Source: Nitratifractor sp.
GTDB lineage: Bacteria; Campylobacterota; Campylobacteria; Campylobacterales; Sulfurovaceae
Assembly: GCF_015487065.1 (NCBI RefSeq)
Contig: NZ_WFQN01000108.1
Location: 1-40,232 of the forward strand
Reading direction: 5' to 3'
Length of the DNA: 40,232 nucleotides
In this document: positions 1-37,738 of the stretch, one piece after another
Layout: each line of letters opens with the position of its first letter
Position numbering within the stretch: position 1 is the first letter of the stretch
Position numbers and translations under genes: made by a program
The notes under the pieces: generated by a model
What the model was told of the DNA's origin: nothing
Seen by the model: only the letters and a program-made list of their open reading frames with translations
The model's database searches: none

Positions 1-1477
1 CACTGTAGCGTTCGTAGCGACGGGTCTTGTCTTTCTCCACCGCCCGCATGATGACCGCTTCGAGCCAGGCGGGGGTGAGGGGATTGAGACGGCGCAGAGG
101 CGTGGGCGTGCGGAAAGTCGGCGTCTGGAAAGGTTCGATCTCCCCGTAGGGGAGTTTGCGACCCAGGGCTTCGTAAAGCGTGACACCGACAGCGAAGATT
201 TCGGTCTGCTCACTGATACTTTCACCGGTGAAGCGTTCGGGGGCCAGATAGCTGGGGGTCCCGGCCCGGGAGGCGAGGGAGAAGATCTCCACGATGGAGC
301 CGAAATCGATCAGTTTGTAGATCCGTTTGCCGTGGCGGCGCAGGACGAGGATGTTTTCAGGTTTGATATCGCCGTGGACCAGATCATAGCGCAGGAGAAA
401 CTGACTGGCATGCAGCAGAAATTTCCCCAGATTGACGGCGTCTTCGACGGGCAGGGGTTTGCGGGCGATCTCTTCCTTGAGCGTGGGGGCGTCGATATAC
501 TCCATCACATAGTAGCGGCAGCTCCGTTTGGCGGGGATGACCGCCTTGGGGAAGAAGCCCGCTTTGAGGCGGGAGGCGTTCCAGGCCTCTTTGACGAAGA
601 GATCCAGATAACTTTCGTCGTGAATCGCTTCAACGGGCGGGAATTTCAGAACATAGCGTACCCCTTTTTTCTCCGCCAGCCAGGTGCGTTCGTTCTGGAT
701 GAGGGGGCGCAGGAGTCTGTAGCCGTCGATCGTTTCACCCTTTTTGAGCTTTTCGGGGATAGGGAGGTCGATCTTCTTGAGGCTTTGGCGCTTGGATTCT
801 CCCAGGATATCGATGACGATCGCCGTCGTGTCGTCGGGGAGGTCATCTTTGACCTTTTTGCTGGCATACTTGATCAGAGGAACCGCGCCGGCGACCATCT
901 GTTCGGTGATCTCCTTTTCGCTGAGCACCGCTTCCAGTCCGTCGCTGGCCAGGAGCAACCGGTCGCCCACATGGAGATTGTTTTCGAAAAAGAAGATCTC
1001 CACCTCTTCCTCCATGCCGATGGCCTGGGTCAGGACATGCTCCATCCCCTCCTCGTGGCTGGTATGGGGAACGCTCAGGCGCAGCAGCTCCCCCTCGCGG
1101 AGCAGAAAAATTGGAGAATCCCCTACGTTGGCGCCGTAGAGGCGGTTCCCCTCGATGACGGTAACGCTGAGGGTGGTGAGGTACTCAGGGCGTTCGTACT
1201 CGTCGATCCCTTCCCGGTAGAGGATTGCGTTGATATTGCTGATGAAGTGACGAAGGGATTTTTCGATACTCCAGCTGCGGGGACGGGCCTTGAAGCTGTC
1301 GATGAGGTAATTGACCGCCCGACGGGATGCTTTGGCTCCGGCGGCGGCGCTGCCGACCCCGTCGCCAAGCACCGCGATACAGAGGTCTTCGACCACCCTT
1401 ACCGCGGCGAAATCTTCACTAAGAGGCTCTTTGCCTTTGGCCAGGCCGAAGGTAGAGGTTTTGAAGAGGGAAGACAT
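1..1477 (-). CDS. Bifunctional PP2C-type phosphatase / Ser-Thr protein kinase (C-terminus beyond window)
   Basis: My own translation of the reverse strand from ATG at 1477 stays open for 492 codons to the window edge; the ORF track omits it. Residues 1-230 are a PP2C phosphatase: metal-site motifs GDGVGS (D39), ANVGDS (D120), ASDG (D179) and DDTT (D216). Residues 250-492 are a Hanks-type kinase: Lys278 in YVLKFP, helix-C Glu297, catalytic loop HGDIKPEN (369-376), DFG (391-393) and APE (412-414). The catalytic loop has HGD instead of HRD, and the Gly-rich ATP loop has no glycines (RLLRPLIQNERTW). It lies downstream of narK on the same strand, so probable co-transcription. The same fusion next to a nitrate transporter is known in Pseudomonas (the PA1782 region). 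A role in regulating nitrate assimilation is inference; its targets are unknown. Confidence 0.93.
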   Translation of the reverse strand, partial: MSSLFKTSTFGLAKGKEPLSEDFAAVRVVEDLCIAVLGDGVGSAAAGAKASRRAVNYLIDSFKARPRSWSIEKSLRHFISNINAILYREGIDEYERPEYLTTLSVTVIEGNRLYGANVGDSPIFLLREGELLRLSVPHTSHEEGMEHVLTQAIGMEEEVEIFFFENNLHVGDRLLLASDGLEAVLSEKEITEQMVAGAVPLIKYASKKVKDDLPDDTTAIVIDILGESKRQSLKKIDLPIPEKLKKGETIDGYRLLRPLIQNERTWLAEKKGVRYVLKFPPVEAIHDESYLDLFVKEAWNASRLKAGFFPKAVIPAKRSCRYYVMEYIDAPTLKEEIARKPLPVEDAVNLGKFLLHASQFLLRYDLVHGDIKPENILVLRRHGKRIYKLIDFGSIVEIFSLASRAGTPSYLAPERFTGESISEQTEIFAVGVTLYEALGRKLPYGEIEPFQTPTFRTPTPLRRLNPLTPAWLEAVIMRAVEKDKTRRYERYS

Positions 1478-1599
1478 GGTTGCTCTTTGTCTATTGGTGT
1501 ATTAGTGTATTGGTATATTGGTATATTGGGATATTGGCAAAGAGGTTCTATTTTCACTCCCAATACACCAATAACTAATATACCAATAACAAAGTCGGA
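1478..1599. repeat. Intergenic repeat mosaic A (CCAATAYA-type arrays in inverted arrangement)
   Basis: The gap between narK and the kinase gene is almost entirely degenerate 7-9-mers of the type TATTGGTG / TATTGGTA (1491-1538), then the same family in opposite orientation, CCAATACACCAATAACTAA, at about 1559-1590. The two arms can fold into a long imperfect hairpin in the narK-kinase transcript. The CCAATACA unit recurs near 5042, 35590 and 37695. Confidence 0.8.
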
Positions 1600-1610
1600 T
1601 CAAATCCGAC
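1594..1610 (-). terminator. Perfect hairpin spanning the narK stop codon
   Basis: GTCGGAT-CAA-ATCCGAC has 7-bp arms and a 3-nt loop. The narK stop (1600-1602) sits at its centre, so the last coding bases are mirrored just outside the gene. On the narK strand it is followed by TTTGTTATTGG, a weak T-tract. It may act as a terminator or attenuator, or be a junction product of the neighbouring repeat mosaic. Confidence 0.5.
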
Positions 1611-2874
1611 CTCCCGCACTCACTCCCCAGGTGGTGCGCCAGCGGGTTTTGACCAGGCTGATGCCGATGATCGCCACGGCGACGACGGCGGCGAAGAGGA
1701 AGAAGCCCGCGGCATAGCTGCCAAAGGCGCTTTTGGACCATCCCAGGGTTTTGATGAGCGCCGTTCCCCCCAGGCCGCCGGCGCAGCCGACGATGCCGGT
1801 CATGATTCCCATATCCCGACCGAAGCGCTGAGGCACCAACTGGAAGACCGCGCCGTTGGCCATCCCCAGGTTGGCCATGATCAAAAAGAGGATCAGGATC
1901 GCCAGATAGAAGTGTTGCACGAAAGCGTTGAAAACCGCCAAAGCCGCCGTGGCCCCGAAGAAGATATAGAGGCTTTTGACTCCGCCCAGTTTGTCGGCGA
2001 TGCCGCCCCCCACGGGTCGCAGGACTGCCCCGGCGAAGATACACAGCGCACCGAAGTAGCCGGCGACCACTTTGACGTTGGGTTCGTTGAGGTATTCCAG
2101 GCCGAATTGGCTCATATCGACCTGATAGGTGCTCATCAGGTAGACCTTCATATAGTTGGCGAAGCCGACGAAACCTCCGAAGCTGACGGCGTAGAAGAGG
2201 CTGAACCACCAGGTATCTTTGTCTTTGAGCAGTTTGAGGTAGTCGCTCAGTTTCTTGGGATTGGGTTTGTAGACATCGGCGGGGGCGTCTTTGGCCATCA
2301 GGGCATACATGATGAAAATGAAGGTCGAGAGAATGGCGCCGACCAGAAAAACTGCCTGCCATCCCCAATACTCCGCGATCTTGGGGGCGAAGAGGAAGTC
2401 GAGAACGACCCCGATATTTCCTGCACCGGCAAGCCCGAGCACCAGCCCCTGCAGCCTGGGGGGATACCACTGTCCCGCCTGGGGGAGTGCTACGGCGAAG
2501 GAGGCACCGGCGAAACCGAGGCCGAAGGCGACGAAAAGCAGCTCGTGGTAGGTGATGTTTTCACCGCGGAAATAGGCATAGAAAAGGGAAGCGATGACAA
2601 TTGCCTGGGAGATCAGCGCCGTCTTTTTGGCGCCGATTTTGTCGACGCCGAAGCCCAGCAGGATCCGCAGGATCGCTCCGGAGAGGATGGGGATCGCCAG
2701 GAGTGTCGCTTTTTGGTTGGGATCGAGGTGGAAGCCGTGGGCCGCCAGCGACTGGCTGATCTCCGTGGCCAGAGGCCCCAGCATGGTCCAGACCATGAAG
2801 CTGAAGTCGAAGTAGAGGAACGCGGCCAGCAGCGTCGGAAAGTGCCCGGCCGTTTTGAGTTCACCGAATTTCAT
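1600..2874 (-). CDS. narK: NarK-type nitrate/nitrite MFS transporter
   Basis: The product has 424 aa, normal for NarK/NasA proteins, with about 12 hydrophobic segments. The N-terminus (LLAAFLYFDFSFMVWTMLGP) and the segment GFAGASFAVALPQAGQWYPP match the nitrate/nitrite porter family of the major facilitator superfamily; the Gly-rich stretch GIVGCAGGLGG fits the nitrate signature region. It should sit in the inner membrane and move nitrate and/or nitrite. The start at 2874 has a strong ribosome site, AAGGAGCACGACAAATG. It is divergent from nirA and upstream of the phosphatase-kinase gene, so the three form an assimilation cluster. Whether it is a nitrate/H+ symporter or a nitrate/nitrite exchanger cannot be read from sequence; next to assimilatory nirA, uptake is the simplest reading. 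No nitrate reductase gene lies in the window. Confidence 0.92.
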   Translation of the reverse strand: MKFGELKTAGHFPTLLAAFLYFDFSFMVWTMLGPLATEISQSLAAHGFHLDPNQKATLLAIPILSGAILRILLGFGVDKIGAKKTALISQAIVIASLFYAYFRGENITYHELLFVAFGLGFAGASFAVALPQAGQWYPPRLQGLVLGLAGAGNIGVVLDFLFAPKIAEYWGWQAVFLVGAILSTFIFIMYALMAKDAPADVYKPNPKKLSDYLKLLKDKDTWWFSLFYAVSFGGFVGFANYMKVYLMSTYQVDMSQFGLEYLNEPNVKVVAGYFGALCIFAGAVLRPVGGGIADKLGGVKSLYIFFGATAALAVFNAFVQHFYLAILILFLIMANLGMANGAVFQLVPQRFGRDMGIMTGIVGCAGGLGGTALIKTLGWSKSAFGSYAAGFFLFAAVVAVAIIGISLVKTRWRTTWGVSAGGRI

Positions 2875-2905
2875 TTGTCGTGCTCCTTGAATGGTTGATG
2901 TCGAA

Positions 2906-2911
2906 ATTATA
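2906..2911 (-). promoter_or_regulatory. Probable -10 box of narK
   Basis: The reverse strand reads TATAAT 32 nt upstream of the narK start. No good -35 is visible, which is common for sigma-70 promoters of Campylobacterota. The AT-rich 135-bp divergent gap to nirA (2875-3009) presumably carries control sites for both genes, but I see no clear operator palindrome. Confidence 0.5.
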
Positions 2912-3009
2912 GATCAGATAATGTCACGTTGTATGTCTATTTTTTGAACAATACCATGAAAACTTTTTGAATATACTTCCGACAAGAAATTGTTATAGTG
3001 AGGTATATA

Positions 3010-4908
3010 ATGAGACTAGAAGCGATCAGCGCCCGACATACAAAAATCAACAAAATAGAGAAGCTCAAAGAGACCCGGAGCTATCAGGAAGCCTGGGAAG
3101 CGTTGCAGCGCTACGCCAAAGAGGGATACGACGCCATCAGCAAAGAGGATATGAGCTACTTCCTCAAGACCTTCGGCATCTTCGATCGCCCGGCAACCCC
3201 CGGAAAATTCATGCTTCGCGTCCGCATCCCCGGCGGACGCCTGACGAGTGAGCAGGCGACCCGACTGGGCGAGCTCTCCCGGGATTACGGCGAAGACGCC
3301 ATGGACCTGACGACCCGGATGCAGGTGCAGCTGCGCTATCTGAAGATCGAGGACCTTCCTACGGTCCTGGAGGGGCTTGAAGCGGTGGGCATTACCACCT
3401 GGCAGACGGGGGTGGACAACTTCCGCAATATTGTCACCGATCCTCTCGACGGCCTGGCCTTCGACAACCTCATCGAGTGTGCCCCGCTTATCGAAGCGAT
3501 GCAGTCGCTCTGGCTCAAACAGCCCGACTATATCAATGTGCTTCCCAGGAAGTTCAACACCGCCATCAGCGGCTCACTGGCCAACCGTTGCAACCTCTTC
3601 GCCCATGATATCTGCTTCGCCTTGGCTAACAAGGACGGAGAATACGGTTTCAACCTCTACCTGGGGGGCAAGGTCGGGGCCATCGCCGAGCGGGCCGATA
3701 TCTTCGTTACCCCCGATGAATTGATGGAGCTCTACAAAGCGGTTATCGATACCTATATCCAATACGGTTTCCGGGACAGCCGCAACCGTAACCGGCTTCA
3801 CTACCTGATCAAAGAGGCGGGAATGGAGACCTACGTCGAAGCGGTCAAAGAGAGCGCCGGCCGGGATTTCGACAGCGCCGGAGAGACCCTGGTCAAAACT
3901 CCCCGCACCGAAGAGGCCGACGGGCGGATCCGCCTCAAAGACGGGACGTGGGCTCTGCATACGGTCGTCCCCTCAGGGATCTTCCACGGGACGGCGATGA
4001 TCGACGCGGCGGAGAATGCTCAAAAGAACGGTTCGGGAACGCTCAACATCTCCACGACCCAGAATCTTTTCCTCCTAGGGGTGCCCACGGAGAAAATCGA
4101 CGCGGCCCTTTCCGAAGCCCCCTACGACCGCTACCGCAACGTCAGCACCCCTTACTTCAATCAACTCGTTGCCTGCGCCGGCTCAGACCTCTGCCCCTTT
4201 GGCGTCATCCCCAACAAAGCCGACGCCATCGAGATGGCCGAGAAACTGGGCGAAAAGGTTCCTCTCCCTGCCGACGCGTCGATCCGGATGCACTGGTCGG
4301 GCTGCGTCAAGGGCTGCGGTGTCCACGAGCTGGGGGATATCGGCTTTGTCGGCTGCAAGGTTAAAGTGGACGGTCAGAGCGCCTACGGTGTGCATATCCA
4401 GCTGGGAGGCAAATCGACCGCCAGTCAGGAGGAAGCCTACACGATCCTCAAAAGTATTCCGCTGACTCAGGCGACCGACTACGTGGCGCAGTTGGCGTCG
4501 GCCTATCGGGATCTGCGCCGGAAGCGGGAGAGCTTCGAACGCTTCGAGAGCCGGGTGCTTCGCCGTTACTCCAAAGGGGCCCTGGGCTTTTTGCTCCACT
4601 GGAATGTCCGGATCGCTCTGCCCAAAGGGTGGGAGGCTCTCGCCATCCGGGAAAACCGAGAAGCCTGCGAAGAGCGCAACGAGATCTTTTTGATGGGGCT
4701 GGAGATCTACAAGGCCCTCGCCGGCAAAAACGCCTATCAGGGCACGCACCATTACGACCCCATTGAGAAGACCCCCGCCGAAGCGCTCCATCGGCTCAAT
4801 CCCTTGGTGAACAAAGAACTCAGTGACGTCGTTATGAAAATGATCGCACCGTCCGAAAAGCGTTACGAAGTCTTTACGGAAGTATTGGCGGATCTGGGAA
4901 TAAAGTAA
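3010..4908 (+). CDS. nirA: Ferredoxin-type assimilatory nitrite reductase (nitrite/sulfite reductase family)
   Basis: Siroheme/[4Fe-4S] reductase for six-electron reduction of nitrite to ammonium. Both ferredoxin-like half-domains are visible (MLRVRIPGGRLTSEQ; the second after about residue 300). The cluster/siroheme ligands are CAGSDLC (C389, C395) and GCVKGCG (C432, C436). The segment TGVDNFRNIVTDPLDG is typical of NirA. The ORF track starts at GTG 2998, but that GTGAGG is the ribosome site for ATG 3010 (MRLEAISARH), giving 632 aa. This is longer than most NirA proteins (roughly 500-590); the last 120 residues or so (from RKRESFERFESRVL) look like an extra helical tail. Sulfite reductase is the alternative, but narK, amtB and the PII gene nearby favour nitrite. 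No flavin or NADPH domain is present, so ferredoxin is the likely donor. Confidence 0.9.
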   Translation: MRLEAISARHTKINKIEKLKETRSYQEAWEALQRYAKEGYDAISKEDMSYFLKTFGIFDRPATPGKFMLRVRIPGGRLTSEQATRLGELSRDYGEDAMDLTTRMQVQLRYLKIEDLPTVLEGLEAVGITTWQTGVDNFRNIVTDPLDGLAFDNLIECAPLIEAMQSLWLKQPDYINVLPRKFNTAISGSLANRCNLFAHDICFALANKDGEYGFNLYLGGKVGAIAERADIFVTPDELMELYKAVIDTYIQYGFRDSRNRNRLHYLIKEAGMETYVEAVKESAGRDFDSAGETLVKTPRTEEADGRIRLKDGTWALHTVVPSGIFHGTAMIDAAENAQKNGSGTLNISTTQNLFLLGVPTEKIDAALSEAPYDRYRNVSTPYFNQLVACAGSDLCPFGVIPNKADAIEMAEKLGEKVPLPADASIRMHWSGCVKGCGVHELGDIGFVGCKVKVDGQSAYGVHIQLGGKSTASQEEAYTILKSIPLTQATDYVAQLASAYRDLRRKRESFERFESRVLRRYSKGALGFLLHWNVRIALPKGWEALAIRENREACEERNEIFLMGLEIYKALAGKNAYQGTHHYDPIEKTPAEALHRLNPLVNKELSDVVMKMIAPSEKRYEVFTEVLADLGIK

Positions 4909-5074
4909 GATGGAAGATGGAGGATGGAAGATGGAAGATTTTGGATAATCATTTGAATGAAATAAAGAACGGAAACATTTTTCATAACACGTAACACTTA
5001 GCACATAGCACAAAATACTTGCGACGGCGCCGAAGGCGCTCCCAATATACCAATACACCAATAACCAAATAACC
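4909..5074. repeat. Intergenic repeat mosaic B
   Basis: Starting at the base after the nirA stop there are four heptamers GATGGAA/GATGGAG (4909-4936), then four heptamers TAACACG/TAACACT/TAGCACA (4985-5012), one CTTGCGA, the block CCGAAGGCGCTCCCAATA, and CCAATATA, CCAATACA, CCAATAA units to about 5074. The last two blocks are shared with mosaic D at 35578-35620. Confidence 0.85.
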
Positions 5075-5092
5075 CCTTGGTGAACGCCAAGG
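5075..5092 (+). other. Small hairpin in the amtB leader side
   Basis: CCTTGG-tgaacg-CCAAGG has 6-bp arms, at the right end of mosaic B. There is no T-tract after it. It may be a structural part of the repeat mosaic rather than a terminator for nirA. Confidence 0.45.
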
Positions 5093-5147
5093 CTCAATTG
5101 CCTAAATTTTATACATTTAACTGTACCGATCACGAAAAAATTTGAAA

Positions 5148-5153
5148 TACAAT
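5148..5153 (+). promoter_or_regulatory. Candidate -10 box of amtB
   Basis: TACAAT lies 38 nt upstream of the amtB start, in an AT-rich stretch after the repeat mosaic. I searched by eye for a sigma-54 type GG-N10-GC element, frequent before amtB or glnK in other Proteobacteria, and did not find one. Confidence 0.4.
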
Positions 5154-5191
5154 GTGAGCATCCAAATCCCAAACGAAAAAAAGGACGTTTT

Positions 5192-6454
5192 ATGAAGAAA
5201 AAACTTCTGACGTTACTCGCAACGCTCCTTCCCGTCGCCGCCATGGCGGGGGAAGCCAAGATCGACACGGGCGATACCGCCTGGATGATCGTCGCCACCG
5301 CCTTCGTCATGCTGATGACCCCCGCGGGACTGGCCCTCTTCTACGGCGGTCTGACCCGCCGCAAGAACGTGCTCAACACCATCGGAATGAGCCTGATCGC
5401 TTTTGCCGTCGGTACCCTGGTCTGGGTGGTCGCCGGTTACTCCATCGCCTTCGGCTCCGGTGATATCATCGGTACCGGCAAGATCCTCCTGGCCGGCATC
5501 ACCGACAAGACGGTCAACGGGAGTATTCCCGAGCTGCTCTTCGTCGCCTTCCAGGGAACCTTCGCCGCCATCGCCGTGGCCATCGCCAGCGGTTCGATGA
5601 TCGAGCGGGTGAAGTTTTCCACCTTTACGATCTTCGCCGCGCTCTGGATCCTGGTCGTCTACGCTCCCATCACCCACTGGGCCTGGGGAGGCGGTGAGAT
5701 GCTCAACTTCGGCGAGATGGACTTCGCCGGCGGTACCGTCGTGCATATCAACGCCGGGGTCGCCGGATTCGTCGTCGCCATGATCCTCGGCAAGCGCCGG
5801 GATTTCGGCAAAAGTGCCTATAAGCCTTTCTCTCCCATCCTGGTGGTTCTGGGAGCGGCGCTGCTCTGGTTCGGATGGTTCGGTTTCAACGCCGGTTCTG
5901 AAGTGGCTGCTGACGGTGTCGCCGCCAACGCCTTCCTGGTCACCAATGTCGCCGCCTCTCTCGGTGTGATCGGCTGGCTGCTTGTCGAGTATCTCCTCTA
6001 TAAGAAGGCGACCCTCGTCGGGGGAGCCTCCGGTGCCGTCGCCGGACTGGTCGCCATCACTCCCGCTTCGGGAAGTGCCGGAGTCGTCGGAGCCATCATC
6101 ATCGGTCTGATCGGCGGTGCCCTGGGTGCCTTCGGGGTCTCCAAGATCAAAAAGCTCTTCAATGTCGATGACTCTCTGGATGCCTTCTGGGTCCACGGCT
6201 TGGTAGGGATCTGGGGATCCATCGCTACGGCGCTGTTTATCGCACCCTATCTGATGCCCGAGAATTTCCATCTGGGAAGCCAGTTGATGGCTCAGATCAA
6301 AGCGGTGCTTCTGACCATCGTCTACAGCGGTGTGATGACCGCGGTAGTCTACTTCGTCTCCAGCCTCCTTACCGGCGGCGGACGGGTCGATGACGAGACC
6401 GAGCTGATGGGTCTGGACGAAGCGGTCCACGGTGAAGAGGCGATCAACCTCTGA
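5192..6454 (+). CDS. amtB: Ammonium transporter AmtB
   Basis: 420 aa, inner-membrane ammonium channel. The N-terminus MKKKLLTLLATLLPVAAMA is a cleavable signal peptide, then about 11 membrane segments as in E. coli AmtB. Family marks include MTPAGLALFYGGLTRRKN, THWAWGGGEMLNFG, and the two pore histidines in VVHINAGVAGF and FWVHGLVGIWGS. The start at 5192 follows AAAAAAAGGACGTTTT, a good ribosome site. The PII gene follows 38 nt downstream, so the order is amtB then PII, the reverse of the glnK-amtB order in enteric bacteria. The PII trimer is expected to plug the channel when nitrogen is plentiful. Together with nirA and gdhA it provides the ammonium supply. Confidence 0.97.
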   Translation: MKKKLLTLLATLLPVAAMAGEAKIDTGDTAWMIVATAFVMLMTPAGLALFYGGLTRRKNVLNTIGMSLIAFAVGTLVWVVAGYSIAFGSGDIIGTGKILLAGITDKTVNGSIPELLFVAFQGTFAAIAVAIASGSMIERVKFSTFTIFAALWILVVYAPITHWAWGGGEMLNFGEMDFAGGTVVHINAGVAGFVVAMILGKRRDFGKSAYKPFSPILVVLGAALLWFGWFGFNAGSEVAADGVAANAFLVTNVAASLGVIGWLLVEYLLYKKATLVGGASGAVAGLVAITPASGSAGVVGAIIIGLIGGALGAFGVSKIKKLFNVDDSLDAFWVHGLVGIWGSIATALFIAPYLMPENFHLGSQLMAQIKAVLLTIVYSGVMTAVVYFVSSLLTGGGRVDDETELMGLDEAVHGEEAINL

Positions 6455-6489
6455 TCCCGGAACTCTTGAGAATATTTCAACAAGGATAA

Positions 6490-6834
<345 letters not shown>

Positions 6835-6844
6835 CTCCCATCTT

Positions 6845-6862
6845 CCCTCCGGCCCCGGAGGG
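6845..6862 (+). terminator. Terminator-like hairpin after the PII gene
   Basis: CCCTCCGG-cc-CCGGAGGG is a perfect GC-rich hairpin 10 nt after the stop codon, followed by ACTTTCTTTC, a broken T-tract. It fits the end of the amtB-PII operon. Confidence 0.65.
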
Positions 6863-7217
6863 ATGCACTTTCTTTCAACTGCTTTCCCTCCTTCTCTTAC
6901 TTTTCGATTCGACTTTATTTCCTGGACGCTCAAATCCTTTTCTTTGCAACCGTTTTTGTCCATCATTTTCAGCTCATGGAGTCTGGACCCCATGGAATAC
7001 CTGGAACCCAAATCATGCATTAGCCAGTACGCCATCTGCCCCAATCATCGGTGACATGGGCGATTCGTCCAAAGCCTCGACGCACCCTCCGGGTGCGCCT
7101 GCGTTTCGGTCGAACACCCCAGCCGACCGAGCGTTGGCACATCTGGCACACTTTCTACTGCATGGTTTGGGTTGAATATAGTATGCTATGCTCCGAAAGT
7201 TCCACAAAGGAGTCGTC
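6863..7217. other. Intergenic stretch with hairpin and repeat traces, no gene seen
   Basis: About 355 bp with no convincing ORF. It holds an imperfect repeat CTGGACCCCATGGAA / CTGGAACCC near 6986-7012, a perfect hairpin CGCACCC-tcc-GGGTGCG at 7081-7097, and an AT-rich end with TATAGT at 7177-7182 that could be the -10 of the following gene. The hairpin resembles the short palindromic units in the other repeat mosaics. Confidence 0.5.
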
Positions 7218-7655
7218 ATGTCCGCTGAGAAAAGCATCAGTTTCCCGAAGAGTCTGAAGCAGGCGGGGCTCTCGATGCTCTCTATGATGCCCATGATCCT
7301 GGCGATCATCGGGCTGGTGGGACTGTTTCAAAGCTATGTCAGTGAAGCGACACTCGCTTCGGTCTTCAACGGAAACGCGGTGCACGATACCCTGGTGGGG
7401 ACGCTGGCGGGGATGGTGGCCGTCGGGCAGGCGATCGTCAGCTACATTTTGGGCGGGGAGCTTCTCAAGGAGGGGGTGAGCCTCTATGCCGTGACCGCCT
7501 TTATCCTGGCCTGGGTGACTCTGGGGGTGGTGCAGCTGCCTCTGGAGGCGTCGGTGCTGGGCGTTCGATTTACCTGGCGGCGAAATCTTTTGGCGTTTTT
7601 TTCGACGATGCTGGTGGCGGTCATGACGGTGAGAATCCTGGAGTGGTGGCGATGA
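7218..7655 (+). CDS. Half-size membrane protein, ArsP/DUF318 permease type (first of pair)
   Basis: 145 aa. I place the start at ATG 7218, not 7188, because ACAAAGGAGTCGTC sits just upstream of 7218. The protein has about four hydrophobic segments (MMPMILAIIGLVGLF; LVGTLAGMVAVGQAIVSYILGG; LYAVTAFILAWVTLGVVQLP; LLAFFSTMLVAVMTV). Overall pattern and pairing with the next gene suggest one half of an ArsP_1-type permease, which normally carries both halves in one chain of about 300-350 aa. No cysteine is seen, so the CSC-type motif of arsenic-exporting ArsP proteins is absent. Substrate unknown. It overlaps the next gene by ATGA, so the two are translationally coupled. Confidence 0.7.
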   Translation: MSAEKSISFPKSLKQAGLSMLSMMPMILAIIGLVGLFQSYVSEATLASVFNGNAVHDTLVGTLAGMVAVGQAIVSYILGGELLKEGVSLYAVTAFILAWVTLGVVQLPLEASVLGVRFTWRRNLLAFFSTMLVAVMTVRILEWWR

Positions 7656-8164
7656 GCAGAGAGCGGAATCGGCCTCGGTGGAGGGGGCTACGACTGCTTG
7701 GGTTGGTGAGTCTGCTTTATCTGGGCCTAGCCCTGGCCGGAAGCCCCGGCGCGGGGCACGCTTTGCACAAAATGTTGACCATTTTGGCCACGCTGCTGCC
7801 GATTTTGGCGGTGGTGGTCTTTATCGCCGGCGCGATCAACTATTTTCTCGATCCGAAAGTTTTGGCCAAACATCTGGGCGAAGAGAGCGGTTGGCGGGGC
7901 TGGATGATTGCCCTGGGAGCCGGGGTGCTCAGTCACGGGCCGATGTATGCCTGGTATCCGGTGATCGAAGAATTGCGACGCCACGGTATGCGTGACGGCC
8001 TGGTAGCGGCCTTTTTCTATGCGCGGGCGATCAAAGTGCCGCTGCTGCCGATGATGGCGGCCTATTTCGGTCTCGATTTCACGATACTTTTGACGGGATT
8101 GACGCTTGTGGCTGCCTGGGGGCAGGGAGTGATGCTAGATGCGCTGGGCACCGGGGATCAATAG
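7652..8164 (+). CDS. Half-size membrane protein, ArsP/DUF318 permease type (second of pair)
   Basis: 170 aa from ATG 7652, which overlaps the previous stop (ATGA); the track start at GTG 7643 has no ribosome site. Predicted membrane segments include LGLVSLLYLGLALAG, MLTILATLLPILAVVVFIAGAINYF, and the last third. The motif LGAGVLSHGPMYAWYPVIEELRRHGMRDGLVAAFFYARAIKVP is typical of the permease family: a loop entering the membrane, then FFYARAIKVPLLPM. With the previous product it would make one full two-repeat permease. Substrate cannot be inferred; the usual Cys motif is missing here too. It converges with the GGDEF gene 17 nt downstream. Confidence 0.7.
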   Translation: MSRERNRPRWRGLRLLGLVSLLYLGLALAGSPGAGHALHKMLTILATLLPILAVVVFIAGAINYFLDPKVLAKHLGEESGWRGWMIALGAGVLSHGPMYAWYPVIEELRRHGMRDGLVAAFFYARAIKVPLLPMMAAYFGLDFTILLTGLTLVAAWGQGVMLDALGTGDQ

Positions 8165-8181
8165 GGATCGAAGCGATCGAC

Positions 8182-9639
8182 TTACTGCTGGAGAAAGACG
8201 ACGTGTCCTTTACCGTTCTTTTTGGCGCGGTACATGGCGGTATCGGCCCGACTGATGAGCGCATCGGGATCGGTGATATTTTTTGGGAGCGGAATCATTC
8301 CGATACTGGCGGAGAGCTGAAGCGTCTCCTTGCGAAGGTAGATGGGGGCTTCGATCTCTTGGATAAGCCGAGACATGATCTTTTCGGCCTCATCGGGGTG
8401 CTTGATTTTTCGTAGGACGATGAGAAACTCATCGCCCCCCAGGCGTAGAAGTTCATCGCCGTTTCTGAGAAAGGCACGGATCCGTGCGGCGATCTCTTTG
8501 AGGACCAGATCCCCTACCGCATGGCCGTATTGGTCATTGATCTTTTTGAATCCGTCGAGATCGAGATAGCAGAGCATCGAGAGCGTATGATCGTCGGCAC
8601 GCCGTTGATGGTTCAAAAGCTGAGGCAGGTAGTGGCGGTTGGGCAGACCGGTCAGCTGATCCTGATGGGCGACGGCGTGCAGATGGGCCAGGGCCTGATC
8701 CTTTTCCCGGAAGATGATGCCGACGAAGAGAGCCAAAAAGAGATTGGAGAGGATGAAAAAGTTGAGATTCAACAGCGATTGGGTCAGATCCTGAGAGCTG
8801 TAGGCGAAGAGCCCCTGGCCGTTGTGGGTGAACCAGAGGGTACTCAAGGCCAATCCGACGGCCGCTCCCAAGCCGTAGAGCATATCTTTGTGGATGCAGT
8901 GGATTAGCAAGGGAATCGTGATCATCATCAGGACGGGGAGGCTGTGGATATGCAGGGTGATCTGCATCAGATAATTGAGCGCGGCCATGCCGAAAATGTA
9001 GACACCGAGTCTTAGGTAATTGATCCGTCGATATCCGGTATGCAGCAAAAGGAGGAAAGGGGTGATGAGCAGCTGTCCCAGGACATTGCCGAACCACCAG
9101 AAAAAGAGGCTATTTTTAAAAGAGGAGAGCGGTTCCATCCCTGCCAGATAGAGGACGCCGTTTCCCAGGATGGCGCTAAAGGGTTGCAGAATGAGGAGGA
9201 TCATCCCCGTCAGCAGCATCAGATCGCGGATGCTGCTCAAATTGAGATCCAGCGCATAACGGCGGGAAAGCCGGTAGGCGATGAGGGCTTCGAGACTATT
9301 GACCAGAGCAATGCCCCCTGCGGGAAACCAGCCGAGGCCGGAATTGAGCGCCAGCAACAGTTGTCCCAGGAAAATCCCCGGGATGATCCGGGGGCCGTAG
9401 ATCAGCACTCCGGCCAGGGCAAACCCCTCCGGCAAAAAAGCCGAGAGTGTCACGACACCGTTTTGGTGATAGATGCTGAAGCTCAACCCTCCCGCCAGGA
9501 GATAGAGAAGAATCATGGCGATGTTGAGAATCGCGATCCTTCCGACCCCGCTACTGAAGTAGCCGGCCATCTCTTCGTCAGGAGATGTATTGATATGCTT
9601 GACCACCTCTTCTTTTCCCTTCCTTCTGCGATACATCAT
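8182..9639 (-). CDS. MASE1-GGDEF diguanylate cyclase
   Basis: 485 aa as given in the track. Residues 30-310 form a polytopic MASE1-like sensor (LSAFLPEGFALAGVLIYGPRIIPGIFLGQLLLALNS), followed by a GGDEF domain from about 330 (DQLTGLPNRHYLPQLL). The active site GGDEF (401-405) is intact, so c-di-GMP synthesis is expected, and RNGD (392-395) five residues before it is a canonical RxxD inhibitory site. Start uncertain: the -10-like TATAAT (9638-9643, reverse) overlaps this ATG, so transcripts would begin near 9631. The in-frame GTG at 9606, preceded by AGAAGGAAGGG, may be the real start (474 aa). The signal sensed is unknown; there is no cognate partner beside it. Confidence 0.92.
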   Translation of the reverse strand: MMYRRRKGKEEVVKHINTSPDEEMAGYFSSGVGRIAILNIAMILLYLLAGGLSFSIYHQNGVVTLSAFLPEGFALAGVLIYGPRIIPGIFLGQLLLALNSGLGWFPAGGIALVNSLEALIAYRLSRRYALDLNLSSIRDLMLLTGMILLILQPFSAILGNGVLYLAGMEPLSSFKNSLFFWWFGNVLGQLLITPFLLLLHTGYRRINYLRLGVYIFGMAALNYLMQITLHIHSLPVLMMITIPLLIHCIHKDMLYGLGAAVGLALSTLWFTHNGQGLFAYSSQDLTQSLLNLNFFILSNLFLALFVGIIFREKDQALAHLHAVAHQDQLTGLPNRHYLPQLLNHQRRADDHTLSMLCYLDLDGFKKINDQYGHAVGDLVLKEIAARIRAFLRNGDELLRLGGDEFLIVLRKIKHPDEAEKIMSRLIQEIEAPIYLRKETLQLSASIGMIPLPKNITDPDALISRADTAMYRAKKNGKGHVVFLQQ

Positions 9640-9772
9640 TATATTTTATGATTTCAAAAAATAATCAAATGGCGATTTAATTTTTATTCTACCAGAAAAA
9701 TGAGATCTGTAAAGCAACAATTCTTTAAAAACTCTTCAAAATTTCCAGTTGTTTAGATCGCATCCCGGCTAT

Positions 9773-11134
9773 TTAGACCGCTCCCTCGTCGATCATGGCA
9801 TCGGCGACCCGGCGGAATCCGGCGATGTTGGCTCCCATGAGCAGGTCCCCTTCGTGGCCGAACTCCCGGGCGGTTTCGTCGGCGGTTTCGAAGATGCTCT
9901 TCATGATGCCGAAGAGTTTGGTATCCACTTCGGCAAAGCTCCAGCGCTGCATGCTGGCGTTTTGGGCCATCTCCAGCTGGCTGACGGCGACACCCCCGGC
10001 ATTGGCGGCCTTGGCGGGGCCGAAGAGCACTTTGTGCTTCCGGAGGTATTCGAGGGCTTCGGGGGTGGTAGGCATGTTGGCGCCTTCATTGACCAGGATG
10101 CAGCCGTTTTTGACCAGGTTTTTGGCGTCGACGAGGGTCAGTTCGTTCTGGGTGGCGCTGGGGAAGGCCACGTCGCAGGGGATCGACCAGACGGCGTGGC
10201 CTCCTTCGGGGTACTGGTGGGCCGGGATGTAGGTGGCGTCGGGATGGAGCTGGGCGTACTTCTCCAGGGACTCTCTGCCCACCTCCTTGATCGCCTTGAG
10301 GGTCTTGACGTCGATCCCCTTGGGGTGGTGGATGGTCCCGCGGCTGTCGGAGCAGGTGACGGGGATCGCGCCCATGCTTTTGAGCTTCTCGATGGTGTAG
10401 GTAGCGACATTTCCCGCTCCGGAGACGCAGCAGGTTTTGCCTTTGAGCTCGTCGCCGTGTTTGTTGAGGATATGTTCGGCGAAATAGACCGAGCCGTAGC
10501 CGGTGGCTTCCCGACGGCCGAAAGAACCGCCCCAGCCGACGCCTTTGCCGGTCATGGCTCCTTCGAAGGTTCCGGTGAGGAGTTTGTACTGGCCGAAGAG
10601 GTAGCCGATCTCCCGGGCGCCGACGCCGATATCCCCGGCGGGGACATCCTTGGTGGTGCCGATATGGCGGTAGAGCTCGTTCATAAAGGCTTGGCAGAAG
10701 CGGTTGATCTCGGCGTCGCTTTTGCCCTTGGGGTCGAAGTTGCTCCCTCCTTTACCGCCGCCGATTCCCAAGCCGGTGAGGGCGTTTTTGAAGATCTGTT
10801 CGAAGCCCAGGAATTTGACGATCCCCAGATTGACGGAAGGATGGAAGCGTAGCCCCCCTTTGTAGGGCCCCAGAGTGGAGTTGAACTGGACCCGGTAGCC
10901 CAGATTGGTTTGGATCTTTCCGGCGTCGTCGATCCAAGTGACGCGAAAGATGATGGTCCGTTCCGGCAGGATGATCCGTTCCAGGATGCTGTGATCCCGG
11001 TATTTGTGTTCCTCTTCCAGCAGAGGGGTAAGGCTCTCGAAGACCTCGGTGGCGGCCTGGTAGAACTCCTCCTGACCGGGGGAACACTCCCGGATGAATT
11101 TCAGAACATCCTCGATGTACTCTTTGGCGCTCAT
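9773..11134 (-). CDS. gdhA: NADP-type glutamate dehydrogenase
   Basis: 453 aa, the normal size of the hexameric GdhA of bacteria. It catalyses 2-oxoglutarate + NH4+ + NADPH to glutamate. Family motifs: GYRVQFNSTLGPYKGGLRFHPSVN with the substrate and catalytic lysines, TGLGIGGGKGGSNFDPKGKSD, DVPAGDIGVGAREIG, and the nucleotide fold VSGAGNVATYTIEKL. NADPH preference is the usual rule for this length class; I have not proved it from the fold. The start follows AAAGGATCCCCATC. It stands alone between AT-rich gaps, but fits functionally with the amtB/nirA block as an ammonium-fixing step. Confidence 0.97.
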   Translation of the reverse strand: MSAKEYIEDVLKFIRECSPGQEEFYQAATEVFESLTPLLEEEHKYRDHSILERIILPERTIIFRVTWIDDAGKIQTNLGYRVQFNSTLGPYKGGLRFHPSVNLGIVKFLGFEQIFKNALTGLGIGGGKGGSNFDPKGKSDAEINRFCQAFMNELYRHIGTTKDVPAGDIGVGAREIGYLFGQYKLLTGTFEGAMTGKGVGWGGSFGRREATGYGSVYFAEHILNKHGDELKGKTCCVSGAGNVATYTIEKLKSMGAIPVTCSDSRGTIHHPKGIDVKTLKAIKEVGRESLEKYAQLHPDATYIPAHQYPEGGHAVWSIPCDVAFPSATQNELTLVDAKNLVKNGCILVNEGANMPTTPEALEYLRKHKVLFGPAKAANAGGVAVSQLEMAQNASMQRWSFAEVDTKLFGIMKSIFETADETAREFGHEGDLLMGANIAGFRRVADAMIDEGAV

Positions 11135-11250
11135 GATGGGGATCCTTTAGGAAATACGTGAAATCATTGTAACACAAAGATCGGGAGTGAAGAGGGAATT
11201 GGAGGGTCGGAAAACCACGACGAAAGACAAAACTGATCCAGCTTTTGTAG

Positions 11251-11272
11251 GGTGGTGCCCTATGGGCCCACC
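11251..11272. repeat. GC-rich imperfect palindrome downstream of hemB
   Basis: GGTGGTGCCC-tat-GGGCCCACC can form a hairpin with one internal bulge. It lies just after the hemB stop in a 146-bp gap. It may terminate hemB or belong to the short palindrome class seen in the other intergenic mosaics; there is no T-tract on the hemB strand. Confidence 0.45.
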
Positions 11273-11280
11273 TTCCCCAT

Positions 11281-12255
11281 TCAACGTTCTTTTAGGATTT
11301 TGGCCGCCTCTTTGGCGTGGTAGCTGATGATGAGGTCGGCGCCGGCCCGCTTGAAGCCCAGGAGCGTCTCCATCATCACCCGCTCGTAGTCGATGACCCT
11401 CGCTTTGGCGGCCATCTTGAGCATGGAGTATTCGCCGCTGACGTTGTAGACCGCCAGCGGCAGTCGGCTGGCCTCCCGGATGTCCCGAAGGATGTCCAGA
11501 TAGGCCAGGCCCGGTTTGACCATCAGGATGTCGGCTCCCTCTTTTTCGTCTTCGAGGGATTCGAGAATCGCTTCGCGGCGGTTGGCGGGGTTCATCTGGT
11601 AGCTGCGGCGGTCACCGAAGCTGGGGGCACTCTCGGCTACGTCCCGGAAGGGACCGTACCAGGCGCTGGCGAATTTGGTGGAGTAGCTCATGATGGGCAG
11701 ATGCTCGTAGCCCGCTGCGTCCAAAGCTTCCCGAATGGCGGTGATCATCCCGTCCATCATCCCGCTGGGGGCGATCATATCGGCCCCAGCTTTGGCATGG
11801 ATCACCGCCTGCTTGCCCAGGTTGAGGAGCGTCGCATCGTTGTCCACGGTCTCCAGGACCGGGTCGAGGATCCCGCAGTGGCCGTGGTCGGTGTATTCGC
11901 AGAAGCAGAGGTCGGTAACGACGAAGAGGTCGGGATGGGCCGCTTTGAGCTCCCGGATCGCCGTGGCGATGATGCCGTGCTCGCAGAGAGCGTCGGAACC
12001 GACACTGTCTTTGACGTCGGGGATACCGAAGAGAATCACCGCCCGGAGCCCCAGGCTTTTGAGCTCATCACACTCCCGGATCGCTTCGTCGATACTCAGC
12101 TGAAAGACCCCGGGCATGGAGGCGACTTCATTGCGGATCCCCTCACCGCTGCGGATAAAGAGAGGGTAGATGAAATCGTCCGTGCTCAGGTGGGTCTCCT
12201 GGAGCAGATCCCTCAGGACCGGAGAGAGGCGTTTGCGTCGGAATCGGGTAAACAT
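11281..12255 (-). CDS. hemB: Delta-aminolevulinic acid dehydratase (porphobilinogen synthase)
   Basis: 324 aa from ATG 12255 ([12 protein letters not shown]). The track start at 12390 adds 45 residues that overlap ribA and lack homology; AAAGGAAACCCCG before 12255 settles the start. It condenses two 5-aminolevulinate molecules to porphobilinogen in tetrapyrrole synthesis, which also serves the siroheme of NirA and heme of the cytochrome in this window. The zinc-site cysteines are intact in [14 protein letters not shown] (zinc-type HemB). The two active-site lysines are in [22 protein letters not shown] and [10 protein letters not shown]. It is divergent from ribA, with only 94 bp between starts. 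Confidence 0.97.
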
Positions 12256-12337
12256 CGGGGTTTCCTTTGAAAGAGGTTTGGCTAATTTTACTCGTTTTAA
12301 CCCAAATTTACGTTTTTGTCTCTGGGGCGGCTTGGGG

Positions 12338-12343
12338 TATAAT
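12338..12343 (+). promoter_or_regulatory. -10 box placed for a leaderless ribA transcript
   Basis: TATAAT ends 6 nt before the A of the ribA ATG at 12350, so the expected transcription start coincides with the start codon. No Shine-Dalgarno sequence is present; CCTCC lies there instead. A weak -35 (TTTGTC) lies 17 nt upstream. Confidence 0.55.
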
Positions 12344-12349
12344 GCCTCC

Positions 12350-12916
12350 ATGAAAAAAATCGAAATCTCCAATATCGCTACCCTGCCCACGCGTCACGGG
12401 ACTTTCCGGATCCAGGCTTTTCGGGAAGGGGACAAAGAGCATCTGGCCATGTTTACCGAACCGCTGCCGGAGGTCCCGCTGGTGCGGGTCCACTCCGAGT
12501 GTCTTACCGGCGATGCTCTGGGATCGATCAAATGTGACTGTGGGGAGCAGCTGCAGGCGGCCCTGGAACGGATCGCCGCCGAGGGGGGGATGCTGATCTA
12601 TCACCGGCAGGAGGGGCGCAACATCGGCCTGCTCAACAAAGTCAACGCCTACGCCCTGCAGGATCAGGGGCTCGATACCGTGGCGGCGAACCATCAGCTG
12701 GGATTCGCCGCGGATGAACGGACTTATGAGATCGTCGAGACGATCCTGGAACATTTCGGCATTACCCGGATGCGTCTGCTGACCAACAATCCCCGGAAGA
12801 TCGAATCGCTGCAAAATGTGGAGATCGTGGAGCGTATTCCTCTCGTTATCACGCCCAACCCCTATAATGAAAAGTATCTGCAGACCAAAAAAGAGCAGAT
12901 GGGACATTTGCTTTGA
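12350..12916 (+). CDS. ribA: GTP cyclohydrolase II
   Basis: 188 aa from ATG 12350 ([17 protein letters not shown]); the track start at 12170 is an artefact inside hemB. First step of riboflavin synthesis from GTP. Motifs: the GTP-binding stretch [24 protein letters not shown] with the three zinc cysteines (C, C, C in ECLTGD and KCDCGEQ), [18 protein letters not shown], and [14 protein letters not shown] stand-alone RibA without a fused RibB domain. The start appears leaderless: TATAAT just before and no ribosome site. The 3' end is embedded in a 33-bp perfect palindrome. Confidence 0.95.
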
Positions 12917-35328: not shown

Positions 35329-35625
35329 GGATTCCCCTTTGGGGGAAATGAAGAGTGAAAAGTGAGGAGTGAGGAACTGAAAACTTCGCTTTCGAGTGGT
35401 GAATGATGAATGGTGAATGGTGAATGGTTTCGGTAGGCGTTGCTTTGCAACACATCCTGTTTAATGGAGGCGGGACTTCAGTCCCGCATGCAGGGCCAAA
35501 GCCCTGCCCCCAATGACCAATGACCAATGACCAATGACTCTTTTCTTGCAACTTGCGACTTGCGACTTGCGACTGTACCGAAGGCGCTCCCAATACACCA
35601 ATACACCAATAACCAATAACAAGCA
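35329..35625. repeat. Intergenic repeat mosaic D (inside the liv operon)
   Basis: No gene. In order on the forward strand: GAGTGAR units (35353-35375), GGTGAAT heptamers (35396-35427), a hairpin GTTGC-ttt-GCAAC, the perfect hairpin GCGGGAC-ttca-GTCCCGC (35470-35487), the hairpin GCAGGGC-caaa-GCCCTGC (35490-35507), four CCAATGA heptamers (35510-35537), four CTTGCRA heptamers (35545-35572), CCGAAGGCGCTCC, and CCAATACA/CCAATAA units to 35619. Nearly the same series occurs in mosaic E. Confidence 0.9.
35332..35347. promoter_or_regulatory. Hairpin burying the livG ribosome site
   Basis: TTCCCC-tttg-GGGGAA. On the transcript strand the AAGGGGA ribosome site is in the 3' arm, so the stem could lower livG translation. 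Confidence 0.4.
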
Positions 35626-37462: not shown

Positions 37463-37738
37463 GTGAGGAGTGAGGAGTGAGGAGTGAGGAACCGAAAGCT
37501 TTGCTTTCGAGTGGTGAATGATGAGTGGTGAATGGTGAATGGTTTCGGTAGGCGTTGCTTTGCAACGCATCCTGTTTAATGGAGGCGGGACTTCAGTCCC
37601 GTATGCAGGGCCAAAGCCCTGCCTCCAATGACCAATGACTAATGAGCAATGGCTCTTTTCTTGCGACTTGCGACTTGCGACTTGCAACTGCGCCCCCAAT
37701 ACACCAATACACCAGTACACCAATAACATATCTCTTAT
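37437..37738. repeat. Intergenic repeat mosaic E (inside the liv operon)
   Basis: No gene. In order: four GAGTGAG heptamers (37461-37488), GGTGAAT-type heptamers (37512-37540), perfect hairpin GCGTTGC-ttt-GCAACGC (37552-37568), CGGGAC-ttca-GTCCCG, GCAGGGC-caaa-GCCCTGC, degenerate CCAATGA units, CTTGCGA heptamers (about 37659-37687) and CCAATACA units to about 37727. It is a near copy of mosaic D, same orientation, about 2.1 kb away. It separates livK from livH. Confidence 0.9.

Follow-up and report, generated by a model that had tools for sequence, protein, structure and literature searches.

The window analysed here, a stretch of 40,232 nucleotides of Nitratifractor sp. (contig NZ_WFQN01000108.1), begins with a gene that joins a phosphatase and an opposing kinase in one chain, next to the nitrate transporter gene narK. 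The arrangement raises the question of what the two enzymes act on, the transporter itself, the nearby nitrite reductase NirA, or another product of the nitrogen cluster.

Kinase-phosphatase gene and its protein

The open reading frame at the edge of the window (Table 1) encodes an N-terminal PP2C phosphatase and a Ser/Thr kinase in one chain, with Pfam matches to PP2C_2 at residues 20-191 (E 2.6e-16) and to Pkinase at residues 320-446 (E 5e-21). Its 492 codons are open at the window edge, which is base 1 of the contig, so the gene is incomplete in this assembly. The orthologue in a genome of the same genus (G001, 96% identical) is full-length, with about 543 aa and a C-terminal hydrophobic helix. 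The window protein is short of about 51 C-terminal residues, including this putative membrane-anchor helix, which the sequences show in the orthologue of G001 and throughout the homologues. The C-terminal end of the complete orthologue in locus L021 reads VYRWAFTVSLVINLILLVLLLR. The AlphaFold2 model of the window protein has a mean pLDDT of 84.7 with both domains well modelled, and a pTM of 0.65, which leaves the mutual placement of the two halves unsure. The folds nearest to the PP2C half are tPphA, PstP, and Stp1, and the fold nearest to the kinase half is PknB.

The phosphatase metal sites are intact, as expected from the original prediction: D39/G40, D120, D179/G180, and D215 were all found in the window protein, and the four aspartates are invariant in 83 of the 83 homologues aligned. 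Two oddities of the kinase half noticed earlier were likewise seen, namely HGD instead of HRD (H368-G369-D370) and an ATP loop without glycine, the beta1-beta2 loop RPLIQNERTWLAEK. Related Ser/Thr kinases usually carry a glycine loop. In the homologue alignment GxGxxG is absent from this loop family-wide, and the middle residue of HxD is Q in 37, R in 34, G in 10, and A in one of the 82 rows; HGD represents the Campylobacterota version of this family, whose kinases are largely non-RD. Every row that extends to Lys278, Glu297, Asp370, Asn375, and Asp391, 82 in all, has these residues unchanged. Since no catalytic residue of either half varies among the approximately 83 homologues, HGD and the glycine-poor loop are characteristic of the family rather than damage, and decay of the kinase is rejected. 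The suggestion that the kinase half is weak or acts as a sensor is not borne out by this variable HxD, the family-wide loss of GxGxxG, and the conserved catalytic residues. The active sites of both halves are intact and both enzyme activities are predicted.

narK and neighbouring genes

The gene narK lies directly upstream of the kinase-phosphatase gene, on the same strand and at a gap of 122 bp, in agreement with the earlier description of a phosphatase and a kinase in one protein adjoining narK. Its product matches MFS_1 (E 8e-39; 133.9 bits against a gathering threshold of 33.4 bits; Pfam). The top NCBIfam match is the NarK subfamily TIGR00886, which covers the whole transporter core at 242.7 bits, below the curated cut-off of 311.7. 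The AlphaFold2 model of NarK is all-helical, with a pLDDT of 86.9, and the NarK and NarU structures in the PDB are distant relatives.

Genes for AmtB and GlnK come after nirA, on the strand opposite to narK. The T-loop of GlnK, RGAEY, possesses Tyr51 and has Ala at the position of cyanobacterial PII Ser49, which rules out a PII Ser49 phosphorylation system. An ArsP_1-related permease gene further downstream is apparently divided between two ORFs of 155 and 173 aa that overlap.

Tandem 8-bp units of CCAATAYA occur at a minimum of four places in the window (1492-1588, 5042-5063, 35590-35611, and 37696-37725), and the search with CCAATATACCAATA gave 14 matches of this repeat at two or fewer mismatches, against 0.02 expected. 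Rfam gave no match in positions 1-12500 of the window.

Table 1. Features of the kinase-phosphatase and narK locus, with positions in the window
Feature	Position	Strand	Evidence
Kinase-phosphatase open reading frame	2-1477	-	
PP2C phosphatase domain, about residues 1-225, metal-binding D39, D120, D179, D215	803-1477	-	Pfam, alignment, AlphaFold2 model
Ser/Thr kinase domain, residues 250-492, cut off by the contig edge	2-730	-	Pfam, PknB-like fold
Glycine-less ATP loop, residues 256-269, LRPLIQNERTWLAE	671-712	-	Sequence
HGD motif, H368-G369-D370, catalytic Asp kept	368-376	-	Sequence
Intergenic spacer between narK and the kinase gene, CCAATAYA repeats	1478-1599	-	Sequence
narK, MFS nitrate/nitrite transporter, directly upstream of the kinase-phosphatase gene	1600-2874	-	Pfam, NCBIfam, AlphaFold2 model
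NarK tail motif R411-W-R-T414-T415-W-G417, candidate site of phosphorylation or docking	1624-1644	-	Alignment, model
NarK Asp218, start of TM7 after central loop, most kinase-associated column	2221-2223	-	Column scan, model
nirA-like ferredoxin nitrite reductase, divergent neighbour, not a constant partner	2998-4908	+	Profile matches
GlnK gene	6493-6834	+	
ArsP_1-related permease gene	7188-8164	+	

Partner of the kinase-phosphatase in related genomes

In a set of 101 genomes, composed of the genome of the window and 100 relatives, 43 genomes possess both the kinase-phosphatase and NarK, 55 possess neither, and three are exceptions (G028, G032, and G081), each of them located at the end of a contig. 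Fisher's test gives p 6e-25, without correction for ancestry. NarK without the kinase was found in one genome only of the 101, at a contig end. In most related loci the two genes lie side by side and point in the same direction. NirA-like genes (E up to 1e-100) were present in 56 of the 101 genomes, and since 13 of these lack the kinase, NirA is not an obligate partner and was ruled out as a constant one. The reductase beside the pair varies, being NirA, NirB/NirD, a cyanase nearby, or none; the transporter is the constant, because the same kinase family is elsewhere found beside NirB/NirD, cyanase, or no reductase.

Some relatives show other arrangements. In L035 (6939-8954) and L037 (10496-12493) a hybrid gene of a histidine-kinase-like ATPase and a response regulator separates narK from the kinase-phosphatase gene. 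Distant Campylobacterota homologues of a second type (L063 and L064, 25-28% identical) have a histidine kinase as neighbour in place of NarK, and in L063 siroheme synthase and NirA are encoded close to the homologue.

Survey of Pseudomonadota and partner loyalty

The search of 349 Pseudomonadota genomes revealed 134 homologues of the kinase-phosphatase in 113 genomes. At least 101 of the 134 lie less than 1 kb from a transporter gene (NarK in 55 and FNT in 46), a lower bound because the coordinates of NarK and FNT come from the matches listed, and in 97 of these the transporter gene directly precedes the kinase-phosphatase gene on its strand. Twelve genomes carry two copies, one by NarK and the other by FNT. 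NarK lies 1-6 kb from the kinase homologue in six further cases. Of the remaining 27 homologues, 20 were inspected. NarK belongs to the cluster in ten of them, several sit at the end of a contig, and a few have unrelated surroundings, for example PPi-phosphofructokinase. The latter are divergent members and a real exception. In L199 and L200, such divergent homologues lie near genes for PPi-dependent phosphofructokinase and inorganic pyrophosphatase, which suggests another dedicated partner.

Plasmid-borne homologues, about 30% identical, bear the NCBI name 'bifunctional protein-serine/threonine kinase/phosphatase' and are mostly beside a nitrate/nitrite MFS transporter, an FNT formate/nitrite channel, or cyanase, and across the collected loci the kinase-phosphatase gene most often comes directly after NarK or FNT. 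The link near nasA in Pseudomonas, mentioned in the original prediction, was recovered in L078, L079, and L081, where the order is NarK, kinase-phosphatase, NirB.

A tree was built from 83 kinase-phosphatases with NasA-type NarK (41), NarK-II (17), or FNT (25) as partner. It requires two changes of partner, the minimum possible, compared with 35.5 in shuffles. Partner loyalty thus holds across the sampled kinase-phosphatases despite the unrelated MFS and FNT folds. The FNT clade linked to the kinase has the signature GESKI.MSTRDTLIR and THVKT.PKR, with a Ser/Thr-rich N-terminus and THVKT.PKR in the tail; kinase-less FNT of the same clade are too few for a contrast, and those sampled retain the signature. 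Kinase-adjacent FNT channels are at times close to the cyanase gene cynS (L069, L170, L171, and L181), hinting that some of them carry cyanate.

Residues of NarK associated with the kinase

From Campylobacterota to alpha-, beta-, and gammaproteobacteria, the tails of NasA-type NarK adjacent to the kinase read R-W-R-T-T-W-G or R-W-T-R-T-W. Two Thr between the tail Trp residues were found in 70 out of 70 of these proteins (66 RTT and 4 TRT). Sixteen NarK of the same subfamily without a kinase of their own served as controls; five keep two hydroxyl residues (4 RTT and 1 RSS) and eleven do not, a contrast (Fisher p 1.8e-10) that is not corrected for ancestry and concerns a motif first spotted by eye and tested afterwards. 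L225-L244 were set aside as controls, as they belong to other NarK subfamilies. Kinase-less tails include RWRARW and KWVGAW, and a counterpart tail peptide is KTRWRTTWGVSAGGRI. Since five kinase-less NarK retain RTT or RSS, the tail could serve some other purpose.

On a tree from which the tail had been omitted, six losses of the motif were inferred, all on kinase-less branches, which represent 18% of the tree length (p ~3e-5, assuming losses proportional to branch length). The Treekit independent-pairs test gave about 3.2 agreeing and no opposing pairs on supported branches, too few pairs for its median p of 0.25 to be decisive. A scan of 127 conserved columns, independent of the motif, ranked D218, T414, G417, G404, and T415 as the five NarK columns most associated with the kinase. 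In the NarK model the last helix spans residues 388-416, with T414/T415 at its end, and a helix break separates 209-216 from 219-250, so that D218 opens TM7 after the central loop. In an MFS protein of 12 helices, both D218 and T414/T415 would be expected on the cytoplasmic side.

The other partners have tails of their own. NarK-II tails are conserved but different (EP.G..E..DG[ST]V), and the tail contrasts of NarK-II and FNT gave no clean single universal acceptor. In L302 the kinase gene follows FNT and a nearby NarK has the tail WRSLW, in line with a private pairing of kinase and transporter.

Proposed transporter switch and alternative explanations

The predicted coupling to NarK is strengthened by the near-perfect co-occurrence, the transporter directly upstream, the co-inheritance, and the kinase-associated Thr-Thr tail; between the two substrates initially offered, NarK and NirA, these results favour the former, and the 13 genomes with NirA-like genes but no kinase count against the latter. 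We consider it somewhat probable that the gene encodes a tail-anchored, single-chain kinase and phosphatase dedicated to the upstream nitrate transporter, which it would switch through phosphorylation of the cytoplasmic tail. The kinase half would phosphorylate Thr414 and/or Thr415 in R-W-R-T-T-W-G, Asp218 at the start of TM7 would provide a second contact of the kinase-phosphatase on NarK, and the PP2C half would take the phosphate off the tail. Nitrate uptake could in this manner be closed or opened within minutes, with no need of new transcription. The most plausible trigger would be ammonium, nitrite, or a cell energy status that makes uptake unwanted. Paralogues would act likewise on the second NarK lineage and on FNT nitrite/formate channels.

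The constant adjacency and the conserved contacts on two cytoplasmic patches would also be accounted for, with NarK not being a substrate, if NarK or FNT were a sensor that reports substrate flux through its tail contacts while the enzyme acts on another target, such as a regulator or a reductase. The hybrid gene between narK and the kinase gene in two relatives would suit such a signalling role. However, no gene other than the transporter is constant beside the pair, the reductase being NirA, NirB/NirD, cyanase, or none, and, of the positions in the tail, those with hydroxyl residues are some of the most frequently lost when NarK has no kinase, so we regard a sensing transporter as unlikely. 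Less likely again is that the kinase half is a pseudokinase scaffold docked on the transporter tail, with the PP2C half alone active. The missing GxGxxG loop and the non-RD HxD of many members (HGD, HQD) point in that direction, but Lys278 and the other four catalytic residues, which drift would erode, are invariant, and the cluster has no other constant kinase that could supply the phosphate.

The target could also be NirA, AmtB, or the PII protein GlnK, whose genes all accompany that of the kinase-phosphatase in the window, and the order kinase-phosphatase, AmtB, GlnK recurs in L039, L043, and L053. Nevertheless, AmtB and GlnK are missing near most copies of the kinase-phosphatase, and together with the kinase-less NirA genomes and the Ala in the GlnK T-loop this makes such a target very improbable. 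We give equally little credence to operon hitchhiking, in which the gene would be carried along in a nitrogen-assimilation cluster and have no action on the transporter. Nitrogen genes generally cluster and travel together, but the adjacency is specific to the transporter across different clusters and two unrelated transporter folds, the kinase clades match the transporter type, and the residues of the transporter tail match the presence of the kinase.

Relation to known systems and significance

By its sequence, the window protein is a member of the NCBI family 'bifunctional protein-serine/threonine kinase/phosphatase', of the PA1782 type of P. aeruginosa. It shares with this type the N-terminal PP2C and the C-terminal kinase, and its full-length orthologue probably has the C-terminal hydrophobic anchor too. 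Pseudomonas and plasmid homologues, about 30% identical, likewise adjoin nitrate or nitrite transporters. The Campylobacterota branch differs in HGD/HAD and a shorter chain. The combination of PP2C and kinase was reported in 2005, when the class was called uncharacterised (Krupa & Srinivasan, PMC1262709), and the passages of that paper on PP2C contain no link to nitrate transport. Papers in the open-access literature searched list PA1782 among kinases or regulated genes. No paper on a transporter link of the kinase-phosphatase was found in this open-access literature.

The Stk1/Stp1 and PknB/PstP pairs are the top fold matches for the two halves. These pairs are separate proteins with extracellular PASTA sensors and roles in the cell wall. 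Pfam detected no PASTA domain in the window ORF, which reaches 108 bits against the PASTA kinase model NF033483, with a cut-off of 450. The PP2C half is nearest in fold to tPphA, similar to the cyanobacterial PphA/PII system; unlike in that system, GlnK of the window has Ala at the phosphorylated position. Plant NRT2 transporters belong to the MFS. According to a passage of PMC10944928, citing Ohkubo 2021, phosphorylation of Ser501 in the C-terminal tail turns NRT2.1 off, and the PP2C phosphatase CEPH restores its activity. The proposed switch of NarK would resemble this control in having a phosphosite in the C-terminal tail of a nitrate transporter from which a PP2C removes the phosphate. The resemblance is a functional analogy and not membership, as the plant kinase is a separate protein, the phosphatase is built differently, and the sites may be unrelated by descent.

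More tentatively, the surveys may point to a widespread, unrecognised class of transporter-dedicated kinase-phosphatases in Campylobacterota and Pseudomonadota that privately gates nitrogen-oxyanion uptake. Every clade would serve a single transporter lineage exclusively (there being two of NarK and the unrelated FNT channel) and would modify the cytoplasmic tail of that transporter, giving a rapid post-translational shut-off of nitrate or nitrite uptake convergent with the control of plant NRT2.1.

Roughly one in three of the Pseudomonadota genomes sampled has a kinase-phosphatase of this family, and no functional study of them was found in the searched literature. The residues named here, Thr414, Thr415, and Asp218 of NarK, D370 of the kinase, and D39 of the phosphatase, make the proposed switch directly testable. 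If true, it would represent a new variant of bacterial Ser/Thr kinase-PP2C regulation within a named family, and would explain how bacteria with MFS carriers, and not PII-regulated ABC systems, could rapidly control their nitrate uptake.
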